39,216 nucleotides of DNA, from the NCBI GenBank assembly GCA_016210005.1, contig JACQVA010000152.1, forward strand, positions 1-39,216, in the 5' to 3' direction. Below, in pieces: positions 6,164 through 18,039 of this stretch. The position numbers and the translations under genes were made by a program. The notes under the pieces are model-generated. The model was not told the DNA's origin. It worked only from the letters and a program-made list of their open reading frames with translations, and made no database searches. How positions within the stretch are numbered: the first letter of the stretch is position 1; each line of letters starts with the position of its first letter. Source of the DNA: Deltaproteobacteria bacterium. Lineage in GTDB: Bacteria; Desulfobacterota; Binatia; HRBIN30; JACQVA1.

Positions 6164-6254
6164 CGGAGAGGGAGGGATTCGAACCCTCGGTAGAGGTTTA
6201 AGCCCCTACACACGCTTAGCAGGCGTGCGCCTTCGACCACTCGGCCACCTCTCC
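6164..6254 (-). tRNA. tRNA-Ser (anticodon GCT)
   Basis: On the minus strand a class II tRNA folds from 6254 to 6164. The acceptor arm pairs GGAGAGG (6254-6248) with CCTCTCC (6171-6165). The D-arm contains GTGGCCGAGTGG, the anticodon loop is CTGCTAA with GCT at 6220-6218, there is a long variable arm typical of Ser tRNAs, and the T-arm contains GGTTCGAATCC. It decodes AGC and AGU. The CCA end is not encoded: G then CTT follows the stem. It lies 75 bases downstream of the aminotransferase stop, on the same strand. Confidence 0.96.
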
Positions 6255-11580: not shown

Positions 11581-14500
11581 CTACTCACTAAGCGGTACCC
11601 GGACGATCATCTGTGCCGGCAAACTGAAGTTGCCGCCCATATCACGCAGCTGTACCGTCACCAGGGTATCGCCGGGTGGGAAAGCGAAGGCGTGGGCAAC
11701 CGGGGCGCAGAACTGAGCCGTGCTGTTGGCGTTGACGAATTTGAAATCACCGTCGGGCAACAACGTGCAGGCCTCGCCTCGATCCCGGCCCGATGATGTG
11801 CCCGAACCGTCGACGAAGCGGCAACCGAGATCGCTCAGGGCATCGGCGACCGCTTGCGTGGGCGAGAAGTCGGGCGGGGTAACTGCCGGAACACCGCCGA
11901 TATCGGGCAACCGATTGTCGCACACGGCGGTGCTGCCGTTGCCCAGCGCTCGCGAGACGAGCACCTGAAGATCCGGTCGCACGGTGGGATCATCGGCTTC
12001 GTACGCGTACGTGTCCAAGCCCACTCGTTTGCGGCTACCGCCTGGGCGACCCTCGACCACCAAGCTGAAGTTGAAGCCGAGCGGACGGCTGTAGATTGGG
12101 ACGCCCCCGGCAAACCCGCTCGGCGTCGGGACGGTACCGTCCGCATTCACCGCGCCGATGAAGCTGATGCCGGGCCCTGGGAACGGGGTATTGGTAGGCG
12201 TGCGCGTGATGCTCGGGGTGAAGGTGACGCTCGGCGTCCTGGTTATCGTGGGTGTTGCCGTAGGGGTTCCGGTGTTGGTCGGGGTTCGCGTCAGGGTCGG
12301 CGTGCGGGTCAGCGTCGGCGTCCGAGTGATGGTTGGGGTCAGCGTGATGGTTGGGGTGCGGGTCAGGGTTGGTGTCAGGGTTGGTGTCGCGGTGAGCGTG
12401 ATGGTGGGCGTCGGCGTAATCGTTGGTGTGGCAGTCGGGGTACGAGTCGGCGTGATGGTAGCGGTCGGTGTCGGCGAGGCGGTCGAGGTTGTGGTTGGTG
12501 TCGGCGTTGGTGTTCCCGTCAGCGTAGGCGTGCGCGTGAGGCTCGGCGTCGCCGTCCGGGTGCGAGTTGCCGATTGGCTGGGGGTAGCCGTCGGCGAAGC
12601 GGTTGGTGAGGACGTGCGGGTGTGAGTAACCGTCGGCGTTGCTGTCGCTGTCGCTGTCGGCGTGCGGGTTCGCGACGGGGTGACGGTGAGCGTCCGCGTG
12701 ACGGTAGCGCTGTTGGTTGGGGTGTTTGTGGGCGGGCGCGTGCCGGTTATGGTTGGCGTTGGCGTTCCCGTCACTGTCGGTGTGCGTGTGCGCGACGGGG
12801 TGCGCGTGAAGGTCTCGGTAGGAGTCGTAGTCTGGGTCAAAGTCGCCGTGGGCGTCCTGGTGGCGGACGCGCTGGCAGTGGGCGCCGCCGTTGGGCTCAG
12901 GGTGGCGGTACGGGTTGCCGTGGGAGTGCGGCTCGGGGTGATAGTGGGCGAAAGACTGGCCGAGTAAGTCGGGGTGGCGGTGCGACTGGCAAACGGGGTT
13001 GAGGTAACACTGGCGGTGGCCGTGCTCGATCCTGTCGGAGTAATGGTCCGCGTCTGAGTTGGCGTGGGGGTGTCACTGGGCGTGCGGGTGGCAGTGCGGG
13101 TGCGACTCGGTGTTACCGACGGAGTCAGACTAGGCGTTGGGCTCTGAGTTGGAGTGAAGGTTGGCGGCCGCGTGCCAGTTATGGATGGAGTTGCGGTTCC
13201 GGTTGAAGTGGGCGTGCGGGTACGGCTCGGGGTGACGGATGGGGTGCTGGTTGGAGTCGCCGAGGCCGTTCGCGTTGGAGTGTTCGACGGCGTTGCGGTG
13301 TTGCTCGGGGTGCTCGATGCGCTAGCCGTTGGTGTACGGGTGCGAGTACTCGAGCTAGTCGGCGAACTGGTCGGCGTCCTTGAGAACGAGGAGGTCGGCG
13401 TTGCTGTCGCGGTCGGGGTAAGGGTCGGAGAACTTGTCGGCGGCCGGGTGCCGGTGACTGTAGCGGTCACAGTCGGCGAGCGCGTTGGGGTACCGCTGCG
13501 AGTTGCAGTGCGCGTGGGGCTGGCGGTGGCTGACGCGGTAAGCGTCGGCGTCGCCGATCTTGTCGGCGTGGCAGTGGGAGTGGACGACGGCGTCGGCGTG
13601 CGCGTGGACGTAGGCGAAGCCGTCCTGGTAGCCGAAGCGGTCATCGTCGCGCTGGGCGGCGGCGGACTCGCCGTCCCGCTTGGGGTAATGGTGGCAGTGG
13701 CAGTTGGCCTCAAGGTTCGAGTTCGGCTCGGGCTGGCGGTATGAGTTGGCGGGGCAGTTGCGGTAGTTGTAACGGTCGCCGAGCGGGTTGTTGTCGCAGT
13801 GGGAGTGGCAGTGCGAGAGGTCGTTGGCGTGAGCGCACGGGTTGCAGAAGCGGTGGCGGTCGGTGAAGCGCTGGGGCGGGGTGTGCGGGTGCGGGTGGCC
13901 GTGAAGGTTGCGCTCGGGTTCGGGCTGGTCGGGGTTGTGCTGGGCGTGACCGGGTTGCCGATGTGAATTACGATTTGTTGGACCGGTCCGACATTGCCGG
14001 CGTCGTCGCGCAGGCGGGCGGTCAGTCGGGTATCGCCGTTCGGGAACTGCAGTTCCGACGAGATCAGCGCGCAGAACTGCGAGCGCGTACCGGGGTTGAC
14101 GAAGGCAGGATTGCCGAACTCGTTGAGGGTACAGGCCGCGACCGGATTGCCGACAACGTCGAAGCGGCAACCGAAGTCGTTGAGCGCGTCGGCCACCGCT
14201 TGCGAGGGGCCGAAGTCCGGTGGATCGATGGCGGGGACGCCGGTGTCGCAGATTGCGCGACTGCCGTCACCTAGGGCACTAGCGGCAAGCAACTGAAGAT
14301 CCGGGCGAATGCTGGGGTCGTCGGCGCGGAAGTTGAGCACTCGGGTACCGACCGGATTGCCGTTGGTACCCGGCGAGCCTTCTAGGACCAGTCGGAAGCC
14401 AACCCCCGTCAAGCGTTGATAGACCGGCATGCCATCTATCGTGGCAAACGGCTCGACGCGGGTGCCATCCGCCGCCACCAGGCCGAAAAACGTCAGGATC

Positions 14501-14859
14501 GGCCCGGGCGCCGGCGTTGCCGTGGGTGTGGGCGATGCGGGGTAATGGATCAGTGCCACCAGGGCGGATATGTCGGCAGCGGTTACCAAGCCGTCTTCGT
14601 TTGCATCGATGCCGGCGCAACTGGCCACGGAGCCGCCATCCGCGTCGGCCACCCGATCGCCGTCACCGTCGGTCAACTCAGCTCCGAGCAACAGCAGATC
14701 CGCCGAGGTCACCTGTCCGTCGCAATCAGCGTCTCCCAATGCCGACGGGCTAGCTGCAGGGGCGAGGCCCGCCATCCCCAGCGCTAAGACCACCGCCCAC
14801 GCGATCGCGTGCCGCCAGGGTCGATATTGGGCCAGTCTGCGCACGTTAAAGACGCGCAA
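11581..14859 (-). CDS. giant secreted protein: dockerin-like region, duplicated 4-Cys domain, Thr/Pro-rich linker
   Basis: The 1092-residue protein has a signal peptide (basic to 20, hydrophobic 20-33, then APAAS). Two dockerin-like calcium loops follow, at about 43-62 ([20 protein letters not shown]) and 84-103 ([20 protein letters not shown]). A domain of about 180 residues comes next (119-301). Then there are roughly 590 residues of degenerate TPT/TRTPT-type linker (302-894), and a second copy of the domain (895-1092). Both copies share ADDP..RPDLQ, PPDF.P.QAVADAL.D.GCRF and four Cys at matching places (ICD/VCD, GCRF, ACTL, QFCA), so two disulfides per domain are likely. The in-frame TAG just upstream limits the start to TTG 14859 or GTG 14844; no ribosome binding site is clear. 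It is probably an extracellular surface or matrix protein; ligand unknown. Confidence 0.8.
12178..13956. repeat. degenerate tandem repeat encoding the Thr/Pro-rich linker
   Basis: About 1.8 kb of short degenerate repeats built on ACNCCNACN on the minus strand, seen as GTNGGNGTN on the plus strand. The units encode alternating Thr-Pro-Thr, Thr-Arg-Thr and Thr-Ala/Ser-Thr. The plus strand is strongly rich in G and T here, and the same composition opens long false Val/Gly-rich frames opposite the gene. Confidence 0.85.
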
Positions 14860-14965: not shown

Positions 14966-15418
14966 ATGGCGAAAGCAAAACGGCCCGCCCCCAAGCGCTC
15001 AGCCACCGAACCACTGGCCAACCTGCGCGAGAACATGCGCCGATTGCAGCACGACGCCGAGCAGTTGCTCGCGCGCACGCGCAAGCAAGCCTCGAGCTTG
15101 ATCTCGCGCGACCAGCGGCGTGCACTCGATCGCTTGGTTGATGAAGCGAAACGCCTGCGGGGTGATTTCGAAAAGCGCGCTCAGCGGGCGCAGAAGGACG
15201 TGGAAACCAGGGCCGAGAAGCTCTTGGGCAGCATTGAACAGCAGCTGATCAAGCGGCTAGAGCCCATACTGAGGCGGCTCGATGTGCCCACGCGCAAGGA
15301 AGTTCAGGCCCTCAACCGGCGCCTGGCGCAGATCGAAGGCCGCCTGAAAGCTCCGGCGCCGCCGCCACCAGTGCCCGCCAGCCCGCCAGAGGCGGCGGAT
15401 ACCCCGCTTGTCTCCTAA
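14966..15418 (+). CDS. phasin-like coiled-coil protein
   Basis: The 150-residue, highly helical protein begins with a basic Ala/Pro/Lys tail. A long heptad-rich region (about 18-105) follows, and then the segment VPTRKEVQALNRRLAQIEGRL (near 111-131; written here only as key residues VPTRKEV and LNRRLAQIE), which is typical of polyhydroxyalkanoate granule-associated proteins. It ends in a Pro/Ala-rich tail. Phasins coat storage granules in the cytosol, so this is the best guess, but general coiled-coil proteins can look similar and no PHA synthase is in the window. The start is ATG 14966, with AAGGAGG at 14954-14960; the open frame upstream is not used. It is convergent with rlpA, whose stop is 14 bases away. 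Confidence 0.7.
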   Translation: MAKAKRPAPKRSATEPLANLRENMRRLQHDAEQLLARTRKQASSLISRDQRRALDRLVDEAKRLRGDFEKRAQRAQKDVETRAEKLLGSIEQQLIKRLEPILRRLDVPTRKEVQALNRRLAQIEGRLKAPAPPPPVPASPPEAADTPLVS

Positions 15419-15432
15419 ACTTCGTGGACCAC

Positions 15433-15906
15433 TCATTGAACCAGCGCGCCCGGGATCAGGTATCCCGGGTGCGCCGGGAGCGCGACTCGCACCGGCGGCT
15501 TGCCCTTCTGCGACAGCACTTCGACATGCACCCGCGCGATGCCGCGCCGGACAATCCCCAGCCGGCGCGCCGCCGCATACGAGAGATCGATGCCTCGTCC
15601 CTCGACATATGGCCCGCGGTCATTGATGCGGATGACGACCGAGCGGCCGTGCTTCATGTCGGTTACCCGCACCAGGCTGCCAAGCGGCAGGCTACGATGC
15701 GCCCCGCTCAGCTGCTCGGGATCAAAGCGGGCGCCGCTGGCCGTAAGCCGATTCTTGAACGCCTCGCCGTACCAGGAAGCCTTCGTCACCATCCGCCGAG
15801 GATGGAGTTGTCGGGCGCCGGCAGGTGCGGCAGCGGCTAGTAGGACGGCAAAGCTGAGGGGCAGGATGACGAACACCCGGAATAGTTGGGACTGCGGCCT
15901 GCGCAT
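15433..15906 (-). CDS. rlpA: RlpA-family peptidoglycan lytic transglycosylase
   Basis: The 157-residue exported protein has a signal peptide (basic start MRRPQ, hydrophobic VFVILPLSFAVLLAAAA, AGA cleavage region near 29-32). A double-psi beta-barrel domain follows (about 42-131): ASWYGEAFKNRLTASG, SLPLGSLVRVTD, and VVIRINDRGPYVEGRGIDLS, whose Asp is the conserved RlpA residue. RlpA enzymes cut glycan strands at septa. The C-terminal SPOR domain of longer homologues is absent, so septal targeting by denuded glycan is not expected. ATG 15906 is preferred, with AGGAG about ten bases upstream. The long leader holds a c-di-AMP-type riboswitch and a terminator, so expression is probably switched off when c-di-AMP is high. 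Confidence 0.88.
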   Translation of the reverse strand: MRRPQSQLFRVFVILPLSFAVLLAAAAPAGARQLHPRRMVTKASWYGEAFKNRLTASGARFDPEQLSGAHRSLPLGSLVRVTDMKHGRSVVIRINDRGPYVEGRGIDLSYAAARRLGIVRRGIARVHVEVLSQKGKPPVRVALPAHPGYLIPGALVQ

Positions 15907-15971
15907 GGCTTGGCTCTCCTTTCTGTGACATACCCGGAGAGAGGCCTGCCCCAACACCACCACCAACCGCC

Positions 15972-16004
15972 AAAAAGAAAAGCCAGAGGATCACTCCCCT
16001 GGCT
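15972..16004 (-). terminator. intrinsic terminator in the rlpA leader (riboswitch expression platform)
   Basis: On the minus strand, AGCCAGGGGA (16004-15995) pairs along all ten positions, with one G-U, to TCCTCTGGCT (15990-15981) across a GTGA loop. TTTCTTTTT follows (15980-15972). It lies between the riboswitch aptamer and the rlpA start, 66 bases before the ATG, which makes it the likely expression platform. Confidence 0.85.
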
Positions 16005-16027
16005 CCATCCAGTTTGGCTCCTCTCCT

Positions 16028-16157
16028 TGAAGGCCGACGAAGTTAGCTGACGGGTTCGGGTTCAAAGAGTTACCCGTCCCGATTGCTGCCAACCGGGATT
16101 CACCCCAATACGGAAAACTGGGTCCTCCGTTCCTCTTCTCAGAGGATTAGGCCTATG
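16028..16157 (-). ncRNA. c-di-AMP riboswitch (ydaO/yuaA type)
   Basis: Read on the minus strand, the leader carries the conserved core of the ydaO/yuaA aptamer in order. First comes GGAGGACCCA, then GGGGTGAATC (16106-16097), then CCCGAACCCGTCAGCTAAC (16060-16042). The closing stem can pair GGCC at 16153-16150 with GGCC at 16035-16032, and ACGGA/TCCGT forms an inner stem. Known members bind cyclic di-AMP, usually turn genes off, and often control cell-wall enzymes and potassium transport. Here it precedes a strong terminator and rlpA, so it should couple c-di-AMP to cell-wall lysis. Confidence 0.9.
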
Positions 16158-16347
16158 TCACGGGCTTCGTCTATCCCGTTTCCACCCTAAAGGCAACAAC
16201 GGAGTTGCGGCTCGAAACGACTGCGAGGCTGTCTGCGAATGCGTGTGCGGAACGACACAGCGACTCAATTCCACCGCGACGTTATCTATTTGACGGCGGT
16301 TGCGCGCCTTGCTGGGAATCACCGAAGGCTCCCCTTCTCAGGTCCGG

Positions 16348-16363
16348 TGGCACGTGCCGTGCT
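16348..16363 (+). promoter_or_regulatory. possible sigma-54 promoter of the XRE regulator
   Basis: TGGCACG at 16348-16354 and GTGCT at 16359-16363 place GG and GC with the correct ten-base gap for a -24/-12 promoter. The -12 box starts with G rather than T. It is 64 bases before the ATG of the small regulator. No other promoter is clear. Confidence 0.4.
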
Positions 16364-16426
16364 GCCGGTTGTGGTACCAGGGTGACGCTGACGAGGATGA
16401 CGCTGGCCGACGGGAGGGAGTAAGCA

Positions 16427-16675
16427 ATGTCGTTTGAGAATCAGAACAATGGAGCATCGGTCGCGCTGCTGCGGCGCCGTCTGAACATGACTCAGGAGGA
16501 GTTCGCGCACGCGATCGGGGTGACCGTCTCGACGGTCAATCGCTGGGAGAACGGCCACATCGAGCCCAGCCGCCTGGCGCGCAAGGCCATGCAGGTGTTG
16601 GCTGCCCAGGCCTCGATTCCGGTTGAGCTGGCGGGAGCCGGAGCCGGCAACGGCTCGATGCACAAAGAGTCATAA
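16427..16675 (+). CDS. small XRE-family helix-turn-helix regulator
   Basis: The 82-residue protein is essentially one lambda-repressor-like HTH domain (about 12-60): LLRRRLNMTQEEFAHAIGVT then VSTVNRWENGHIEPS, where the second helix is the DNA-reading one. A short Gly/Ala-rich tail follows. The compact form resembles regulators and antitoxins of the XRE class, but no toxin gene sits next to it. The start is ATG 16427, with GGGAGGGAG directly upstream. It lies divergent from the riboswitch-controlled rlpA and convergent with the peptidase gene; its targets are unknown. Confidence 0.85.
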   Translation: MSFENQNNGASVALLRRRLNMTQEEFAHAIGVTVSTVNRWENGHIEPSRLARKAMQVLAAQASIPVELAGAGAGNGSMHKES

Positions 16676-16716
16676 CCGAGTCACACCTCGCGCCAGCTTC
16701 TCGTCCAACGCCCACC

Positions 16717-18039
16717 TCATCGACGGTTTACCTCCTGCGCGCGGATATCCCGCGCGGGCGGGTTGCCTTCCAATACGTGTCGCCGGAAGAACACGCCGAA
16801 CTTCTTGCCGCTTATGCTCTCCACCACTCGCCGGAACTTCGTCGTATCCACCGTCGTCCGGTTGCGAGCCAACTCCATCACGACGTCGTCGAGCCGCCGA
16901 CTGCCAGCCGTTGCGCGCTGAATCCGTTGGTCCAAGTCATACATGAGCAGCGGCGCGCTGTTGTTGGTTGCGCGGTTATCGTATTGCTTAGTCATATCGA
17001 CTTGCCAGAGGCCATAGCGCTGGAAATAGTCCAGCCCGCGGCCAAAGCCGGTGGCATCGAGCAGGCCGCTGCGGCGCTGCAACTCCAGCGCGTAGTACTC
17101 GGCTAGCCCCTCTTCGATCCAGTCGGCGTCGGCTGCGGCTCGGTACGGCTGCAGCACATGAAACAATTCGTGGAGGTAGGGCGAGGTCTTGTCCGCTGTG
17201 CGCAATGGGCGCCCGGCGTGGATGAAGAACGAACCGGCACCGCTGATGCCACCACGCCACATCGGGTCGCCAGCACTCACAATTAGGATACGCTCGGGAG
17301 CCTCGGGAAAGAGCTTCCGCGCCACCGGCAGAGTGCGGTCGTAGAAGCGCAGCAACTCCGCCAGTGGCACGGTGCCGCCTGGGACGCGCGCCGCCTGCAG
17401 CATGATGCCGGCGATTTCCTGGCGCTCCATCTCGAGGTTCCCCAGAGCGATCCAGCCCCGCGGGCGATCGAGCACCTTCCCCGGTTCAATCAGGAGATAG
17501 ATGTTCGTCCCGATGGCTTCGTGAGCCGCAGCGCTACGCCAACCCGCGGGCAAGCGAAAGATCAGCCGCGCGCGCGACTTGGGTGCTTGTTTACCCCGCG
17601 GCGTATAGTTCAGCAGGATGCGCGGAAATAGGTCGCGGGCACGAGTGATCACCCAGTCCGTTCCGGCATAGCTGTCGTGGCGCTGCTGCCGGCCGCGCTG
17701 GTGGTCAATGCGGACTTGGTAACTGAGGTGGGCGTAAGGGCCGCCCGGTACCCAACGAATCGACCCCGGAGCATGCTCGAGGGTGCCGCTGCCGGCAAAG
17801 CCCTCGAAACGCTCGGCCGGGAAGCGCAGGCGGAAGTCCTCAATCTCGTCGATGCCGGACAACTCCCAGCGAACCAGCGCCCGGCGTGGGTCCTTGGCGG
17901 CAATGGTGACGATGTAGTCGATCGCAAAGGTGCTCTTGCTCGCGGCCAGCGCCGGAGCCACCACCGCCAACGCCGCCGCCAGCGCGAGCAGCAACCATGG
18001 GCACCGGCCATGGCCCGATCGAACTTTGCGCGCGTGCAC
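16717..18039 (-). CDS. M61-like exported metallopeptidase
   Basis: The 440-residue protein has a signal peptide (RCPWLLLALAAALAVVAPALAA), a beta-rich N-terminal half (about 35-230) and a gluzincin catalytic region. The zinc motif is HELFH (about 290-294), with the third ligand in WIEEGLAEYYAL (Glu near 310). The whole layout resembles the M61 glycyl aminopeptidase group, acting outside the cytosol. The ORF is open to 18147, but I choose GTG 18039, which puts the signal peptide at the N terminus and the start eight bases after the stop of the thioredoxin-like gene. It is the third gene of the lgt operon. The spacing of the third ligand is slightly shorter than in classical M61 enzymes. Confidence 0.75.
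   Translation of the reverse strand: MHARKVRSGHGRCPWLLLALAAALAVVAPALAASKSTFAIDYIVTIAAKDPRRALVRWELSGIDEIEDFRLRFPAERFEGFAGSGTLEHAPGSIRWVPGGPYAHLSYQVRIDHQRGRQQRHDSYAGTDWVITRARDLFPRILLNYTPRGKQAPKSRARLIFRLPAGWRSAAAHEAIGTNIYLLIEPGKVLDRPRGWIALGNLEMERQEIAGIMLQAARVPGGTVPLAELLRFYDRTLPVARKLFPEAPERILIVSAGDPMWRGGISGAGSFFIHAGRPLRTADKTSPYLHELFHVLQPYRAAADADWIEEGLAEYYALELQRRSGLLDATGFGRGLDYFQRYGLWQVDMTKQYDNRATNNSAPLLMYDLDQRIQRATAGSRRLDDVVMELARNRTTVDTTKFRRVVESISGKKFGVFFRRHVLEGNPPARDIRAQEVNRR

Follow-up and report, generated by a model that had tools for sequence, protein, structure and literature searches.

Control of cell-wall hydrolases by riboswitches that respond to cyclic di-adenosine monophosphate (c-di-AMP) has been described for Gram-positive Actinobacteria (PMC9960051; PMC10117811). 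In Corynebacterium glutamicum, an nlpC reporter was repressed by c-di-AMP, most likely at the level of translation, and a CTCC element was proposed to alternate between an upstream GGAG and the ribosome-binding site (PMC9960051). Transcription of Streptomyces rpfA ends early on c-di-AMP binding, and further Streptomyces hydrolase genes carry a ydaO-like aptamer (PMC10117811); wall-remodelling enzymes are also mentioned for Corynebacteriaceae and Clostridiaceae (PMC3766115). The kimA (ydaO) riboswitch of Bacillus subtilis, which belongs to the same aptamer family as the element studied here and likewise has a terminator downstream, serves a K+ importer instead (PMC9960051; PMC7288161). In the current study, we describe an aptamer of this family in front of rlpA in a Deltaproteobacteria bacterium (assembly GCA_016210005.1; phylum Desulfobacterota, class Binatia, order HRBIN30), within a stretch of 39,216 nucleotides (contig JACQVA010000152.1, positions 1 to 39,216) that is called the window throughout. 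With a probability of roughly 0.6, we read this c-di-AMP riboswitch as turning off a short periplasmic RlpA by means of a terminator and a translational step at a CCUCUC element, and as part of a small regulon for wall turnover.

Compared to the C. glutamicum nlpC switch, the locus likewise places a ydaO-type aptamer before a cell-wall hydrolase under likely translational OFF control, with a CTCC-type element complementary to both an upstream strand and the ribosome-binding site (PMC9960051). The nlpC system differs in its Gram-positive host, its NlpC/P60 enzyme and its lack of a canonical terminator (PMC9960051), whereas in the window the upstream partner is a strand of the aptamer pseudoknot, and 12 leaders retain the element. 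Aptamers before peptidoglycan hydrolases, several per genome, are also shared with Streptomyces rpfA and its fellows, although that system is actinobacterial and has DisA as its synthase (PMC10117811).

The assignment of the aptamer is firm, and the window carries a genuine member of a known riboswitch class. A cmscan search of the whole window returned a full-length match to RF00379 (model positions 1-134; 97.2 bits, E 5.6e-22, against a gathering score of 38), and a search of the whole genome returned the identical place. The original prediction, made from the letters of the DNA alone, had located a minus-strand ydaO/yuaA aptamer near 16028-16157; the element is real, and those limits were drawn slightly short (Table 1). 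A loop-tail pseudoknot is a defining feature of this riboswitch class. In the window it comprises nine pairs and uses UUCAAGGAG of the tail. Across 49 aptamers, loop and tail pair at -12.8 kcal/mol with their own partner and at a mean of -8.7 when partners are permuted; the best of 20000 permutations reached -10.1, so that none attained the own-partner value, and the 37 distinct loop/tail combinations gave the same outcome (-13.0 versus a permuted mean of -8.6). Binding of c-di-AMP by the window's aptamer is predicted.

The aptamer is followed by the pattern of an intrinsic terminator, as had been claimed, with a stem of ten pairs by eye (twelve according to the scanner) and then TTTCTTTTT. 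Taken alone, the pattern is no better than chance, with one site found in the 1.5 kb at 15300-16800 against an average of 1.2 in shuffled sequences. The terminator is convincing because it lies directly after the aptamer and because the same element recurs in L002 and L007, the other two switches of the window's family.

Table 1. Positions of the riboswitch, its target gene and neighbouring features in the window
Feature	Position	Strand	Basis or remark
c-di-AMP (ydaO/yuaA) riboswitch aptamer RF00379	16016-16163	minus	cmscan of whole window
Aptamer loop strand CUCUUUGAA of loop-tail pseudoknot	16061-16069	minus	pairs with 16031-16023
Aptamer 3' tail UUCAAGGAGAGG, pseudoknot strand	16020-16031	minus	GGAGAGG also able to pair with CCUCUC element
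Intrinsic terminator (stem 16006-15979, GTGA loop, U-rich tail ending at 15972)	15972-16006	minus	pattern scan
CCUCUCUCC, candidate anti-Shine-Dalgarno element	15936-15944	minus	CCTCTC kept in 12/12 leaders of order
Shine-Dalgarno AGGAGAG of rlpA	15914-15920	minus	by eye
rlpA, 157-residue RlpA	15433-15906 (ATG at 15906)	minus	Pfam DPBB_1, TIGR00413
Divergent small HTH_3 gene	16427-16675	plus	Pfam HTH_3, 46.8 bits

The gene behind the leader encodes the RlpA that had been recognized there, and the assignments of genes to families are firm. The protein matches Pfam DPBB_1 (85.7 bits, 2.6e-24; cut-off 28.8) and NCBIfam TIGR00413 rlpA (122.3 bits; cut-off 82.15), and its score of 98.5 against the equivalog NF007953 (PRK10672) lies under the curated cut-off of 201. 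The nearest solved chain is 4avr_A (PA4485; E 4.9e-24), and the window's protein shares the DPBB_1 domain and TIGR00413 membership with it and with the lytic transglycosylase family of RlpA. It differs from these in sitting behind a riboswitch, in having no cysteine and thus no lipoprotein cysteine, and in lacking a SPOR domain, DPBB_1 being the sole domain in the Pfam scan, in agreement with the original prediction; its N-terminus is hydrophobic and resembles a signal peptide by eye. The active-site residues of Pseudomonas aeruginosa RlpA are E, D and H. At their presumed counterparts in an alignment, the H of GAHRSL is invariant (10/10 rows) and the D of RFD is present in the window's protein, which has A at the E position. 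The short protein may be active as a periplasmic peptidoglycan lytic transglycosylase, to judge from its family. A contig scan of other genomes gave two distant relatives of RlpA, at 52% and 33% identity, and neither has an RF00379 match in the DNA examined.

The draft genome (5.9 Mb, 97.57% complete, 4.52% contamination) carries two copies of RF00379, namely that of the window and one on contig C222 (L002), which precedes a frame with Peptidase_M23 and Csd3_N2 (Pfam). A diadenylate cyclase, proposed earlier as something to look for, is present as a single DAC-domain locus (PF02457, 147.3 bits). Its protein reads CdaA-like and by eye lies beside a YbbR-like frame and near an FtsH-like frame; the DGA and RHR motifs of such proteins are visible in its translation. 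LptD is present and the organism therefore has an outer membrane of the lipopolysaccharide (LPS) type, in keeping with the earlier guess of a Gram-negative host. No Kup match was found in the genome.

Within the class, RF00379 was found in 15 of 148 genomes searched, at 21 places in total, under strict filters that may miss weak matches. A DAC domain occurs in 117 of 145 class genomes, so that the synthase far outnumbers the switch; in the window's order, the counts are eight (RF00379) and 15 (DAC) of 15 genomes. One place (L024) is unreadable at a contig end. Among the 20 readable places, RlpA is the target at 13 (L001, L004, L006, L007, L009-L012, L014, L015, L017, L019 and L020; DPBB_1 by Pfam in nine, the other four by motif) and an M23 peptidase at five (L002, L005, L008, L013 and L018; Peptidase_M23 by Pfam in two, L008 and L018 by likeness to L005, and L013 by a Pfam match to Csd3_N2 with M23-like sequence seen by eye in another frame). 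An unassigned, secreted-looking protein follows at the remaining two (L016, L021), and a K+ transporter at none.

Elsewhere in the phylum the targets are mostly of another kind. A sample of 395 genomes contained 52 with an RF00379 match, at 64 places. We inspected every one of the 61 that lie outside the class of the window, in two sets of 28 and 33 loci; these include one under the family cut-off (L094) and two partial matches (L086, L093). K+-transport-type targets, the kind that the kimA riboswitch has in B. subtilis, account for 53 of these 61 places, compared to 0 of the 20 inside the class: Kup at 26, amino-acid-permease-type (KimA-like) transporters at 21, KdpA at four and TrkA at two, the last followed, by eye, by a TrkH-like frame. 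The permease-type proteins are presumed to be K+ importers by their likeness to KimA. The other targets are an SLT lytic transglycosylase at two places (L045, L068), a small secreted-looking protein without a Pfam match at three (L088-L090), and a lysine-2,3-aminomutase-like radical-SAM protein at one (L026), with two unreadable or unassigned (L086, L092). In the first set, all targets were assigned by Pfam (L049 as a permease only after the right frame was chosen), and in the second by tblastn against the first 28 loci in 26 cases and by Pfam in six, L068 by both; some lie several hundred bases downstream of the aptamer. At L088-L090, the aptamer stands before an open stretch of 119 residues, which we take by eye to resemble a 3D-type barrel, and two of these genomes also carry another aptamer. 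The radical-SAM gene behind the aptamer of L026 is perhaps linked to osmolyte synthesis, which is a guess.

The translational part of the proposed control concerns the CCTCTC element, which every one of the 12 leaders in the order contains once, 35-42 nucleotides upstream of the start codon; dinucleotide shuffles would place it in 0.29 of 12, a figure that overstates independence because the leaders are related. It is absent from all eight leaders of the sister family f11. Its Watson-Crick match to the aptamer tail spans 6-8 bases in 12/12 leaders and is longer than its match to the Shine-Dalgarno sequence in 11, the window being the case in which the two are equal (six each); once G-U pairs count as well, the tail gives the longer match in seven (7 versus 6 in the window). 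When the tail was compared with the region upstream of the Shine-Dalgarno sequence, a fraction of 0.000-0.056 of 500 shuffles did as well, over all 12 leaders (0.016 in the window), and the tail duplex is energetically better than the element-Shine-Dalgarno duplex in eight of the 12, the window among them. Pairing of the element with the Shine-Dalgarno sequence surpasses shuffles in seven leaders (0.000-0.050). The five M23 leaders combine the tail GGAGAGGC with the element GCCTCTC, making the helix one pair longer, and the seven rlpA leaders have the tail GGAGAGGA, with the matching T in L007 only. Taken together, this suggests that CCUCUC, by pairing with either the pseudoknot strand or the Shine-Dalgarno sequence, provides an additional OFF switch at the translational level.

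The direction of control and both switching steps are what we infer from these features. At high c-di-AMP, the ligand-bound aptamer would form its loop-tail pseudoknot and occupy the tail; the terminator (16006-15972) would then form and halt transcription, and in transcripts that escape, CCUCUC (15944-15936) would pair with the rlpA Shine-Dalgarno sequence (15920-15914) and block translation. With little c-di-AMP, the tail would be free to pair with CCUCUC, and the Shine-Dalgarno sequence would stay open so that RlpA is made. Together with the second switch, before the M23 peptidase, this would constitute a small wall-turnover regulon under c-di-AMP, supplied by the DAC synthase.

Several results weigh against this two-step OFF switch, in addition to the relatedness of the leaders. 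The Shine-Dalgarno match of the element is the longer in five of 12 leaders once G-U pairs are allowed, and the corresponding duplex is the stronger in four; shuffled sequences are not surpassed by that pairing in the window (0.17), nor in L002, L007, L010 and L013 (0.20-0.54). The tail match could be a by-product of matching purine-rich Shine-Dalgarno sequences, or the element could serve merely to damp translation. In equilibrium folding, tail blocking hardly alters access to the Shine-Dalgarno sequence, whose unpaired probability in the window is 0.200 with the tail blocked or free; any switch would therefore have to be kinetic. The terminator is likewise in the minimum-energy fold of all 11 terminator-bearing leaders folded, irrespective of the tail. 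No sigma-70 promoter match was found in 15300-16800, and seven of the order's 15 genomes have a DAC domain and no RF00379 match, so even within the order the switch is not universal. Nearly identical folds with the tail free or blocked would also suit a real aptamer that switches rlpA ON or hardly affects it, with a constitutive terminator and Shine-Dalgarno hairpin and a ligand that acts otherwise; we regard this as improbable given that the tail-element match of 6-8 bases is kept in every leader of the order.

A purely transcriptional OFF switch, in which c-di-AMP favours the terminator and the CCUCUC near the start codon plays no switching role, is a more credible competitor. This is how PMC9960051 describes the mechanism in B. 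subtilis, and it accords with a U-tract terminator directly after the aptamer and with the weak element-Shine-Dalgarno helix of the window. However, no U-tract terminator follows the aptamer, by eye, in eight of the 12 leaders (L004, L005, L008, L009, L010, L017, L018 and L019; L013 is doubtful), CCTCTC keeps its near-constant distance from the start in all 12, terminator or not, and the window offers no convincing antiterminator, its terminator standing in the best fold either way; we thus consider this account unlikely. The original prediction had also proposed that control at the RNA level replaces SPOR-based septal targeting of RlpA, and the switch-controlled RlpA indeed has no SPOR. This idea has little support because a SPOR-bearing paralogue exists in the same genome: of four DPBB_1 loci, that on contig C9 has DPBB_1 and SPOR in one open frame of 262 residues, and two further DPBB_1 proteins lack SPOR at loci without RF00379, so the switch-controlled RlpA is one among several short paralogues. 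Expression level and location are, moreover, different kinds of control. A paralogue could be foreign, given the 4.52% contamination of the draft. We judge the replacement highly improbable. The original prediction therefore stands for the riboswitch, terminator, RlpA, diderm host and synthase gene and falls for the SPOR replacement; it contained neither the second switch before M23, nor the likely translational element, nor the class-wide difference in targets.

The sister family f11 presents a different arrangement. In its six rlpA leaders (L006, L011, L012, L014, L015 and L020; RlpA confirmed by Pfam in four), the tail reads [AG]AGGAGCGGGATC(C) with an ATG immediately after, and the frame opened there includes the hairpin of the terminator (GCCGGGGGA-GC[GA]A-TCCCCCGG) before it reaches the RlpA domain. 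In 6/6 the hairpin codes for AGGAIPR, in the front part of the signal peptide, and a T-rich stretch comes next, in frame; by eye, this ATG is the sole plausible start preceded by a Shine-Dalgarno sequence in L006 and L012. The Shine-Dalgarno sequence lies within a pseudoknot of 11-12 pairs in five of the six and of seven pairs plus one in L012. Two further copies (L016, L021) have the same leader and no RlpA in that frame; by eye, a different, secreted-looking protein follows, and their longest frames gave no Pfam match. Candidate helices between the tail and the terminator arms in the eight f11 leaders comprise 10 pairs, with 93.8% of cells paired and two pairs changed on both sides, a covariation score reached by 4 of 500 shuffles for helices that were chosen after viewing the same sequences. 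The f11 terminator itself is backed by conservation, not covariation (97.7% paired, no pair changed on both sides, 259/500 shuffles as high). A working antiterminator is not claimed, the terminator being in the best fold of 11/11 leaders with the tail free or blocked. It is possible, at somewhat less than even odds, that the riboswitch of this class serves peptidoglycan hydrolases with an output that has moved stepwise into translation, the element of the order alternating between pseudoknot strand and Shine-Dalgarno sequence, and f11 having its Shine-Dalgarno sequence in the pseudoknot strand and its terminator inside rlpA. If so, c-di-AMP would hide the ribosome-binding site in f11, and a translating ribosome would serve as the antiterminator. 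Judged by titles, no c-di-AMP example of this arrangement was found in the literature searched.

Other features of the window were also noted. The divergent HTH_3 gene may share a regulatory region with the switch; an HTH_3 neighbour motif accompanies 7/7 rlpA-type switches of the order and 0/5 M23 loci. We considered a mini open reading frame that runs from an ATG at 16008 to a TGA stop within the terminator loop, and do not claim it, because L002 and L007 lack that ATG. Further away on the minus strand lie a gene (11581-14859) for a Thr/Pro/Ser-rich low-complexity protein of 1092 residues, with a dockerin match just under the Pfam cut-off (21 versus 22.9), and a tRNA gene with a long variable arm (6164-6254).

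In the literature searched, which does not cover all earlier work, no ydaO or c-di-AMP riboswitch was found joined with RlpA, rare lipoprotein A or a lytic transglycosylase, and no wall-hydrolase c-di-AMP riboswitch in a bacterium whose outer membrane is of the LPS type; a search for c-di-AMP riboswitches with peptidoglycan hydrolases gave work on B. subtilis GlmR only. What appears new, against the papers searched, is the predicted RlpA target in a Gram-negative lineage, with a synthase gene and two predicted switch-target pairs alongside an LPS-type outer membrane. The conserved CCUCUC element supports, by comparison, the mechanism that was suggested for nlpC of C. glutamicum, which thereby becomes directly testable. 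The split of targets within one phylum, with K+ transport outside the class and wall hydrolases inside it, suggests that a single turgor-related signal can be answered by either ion flux or wall remodelling.
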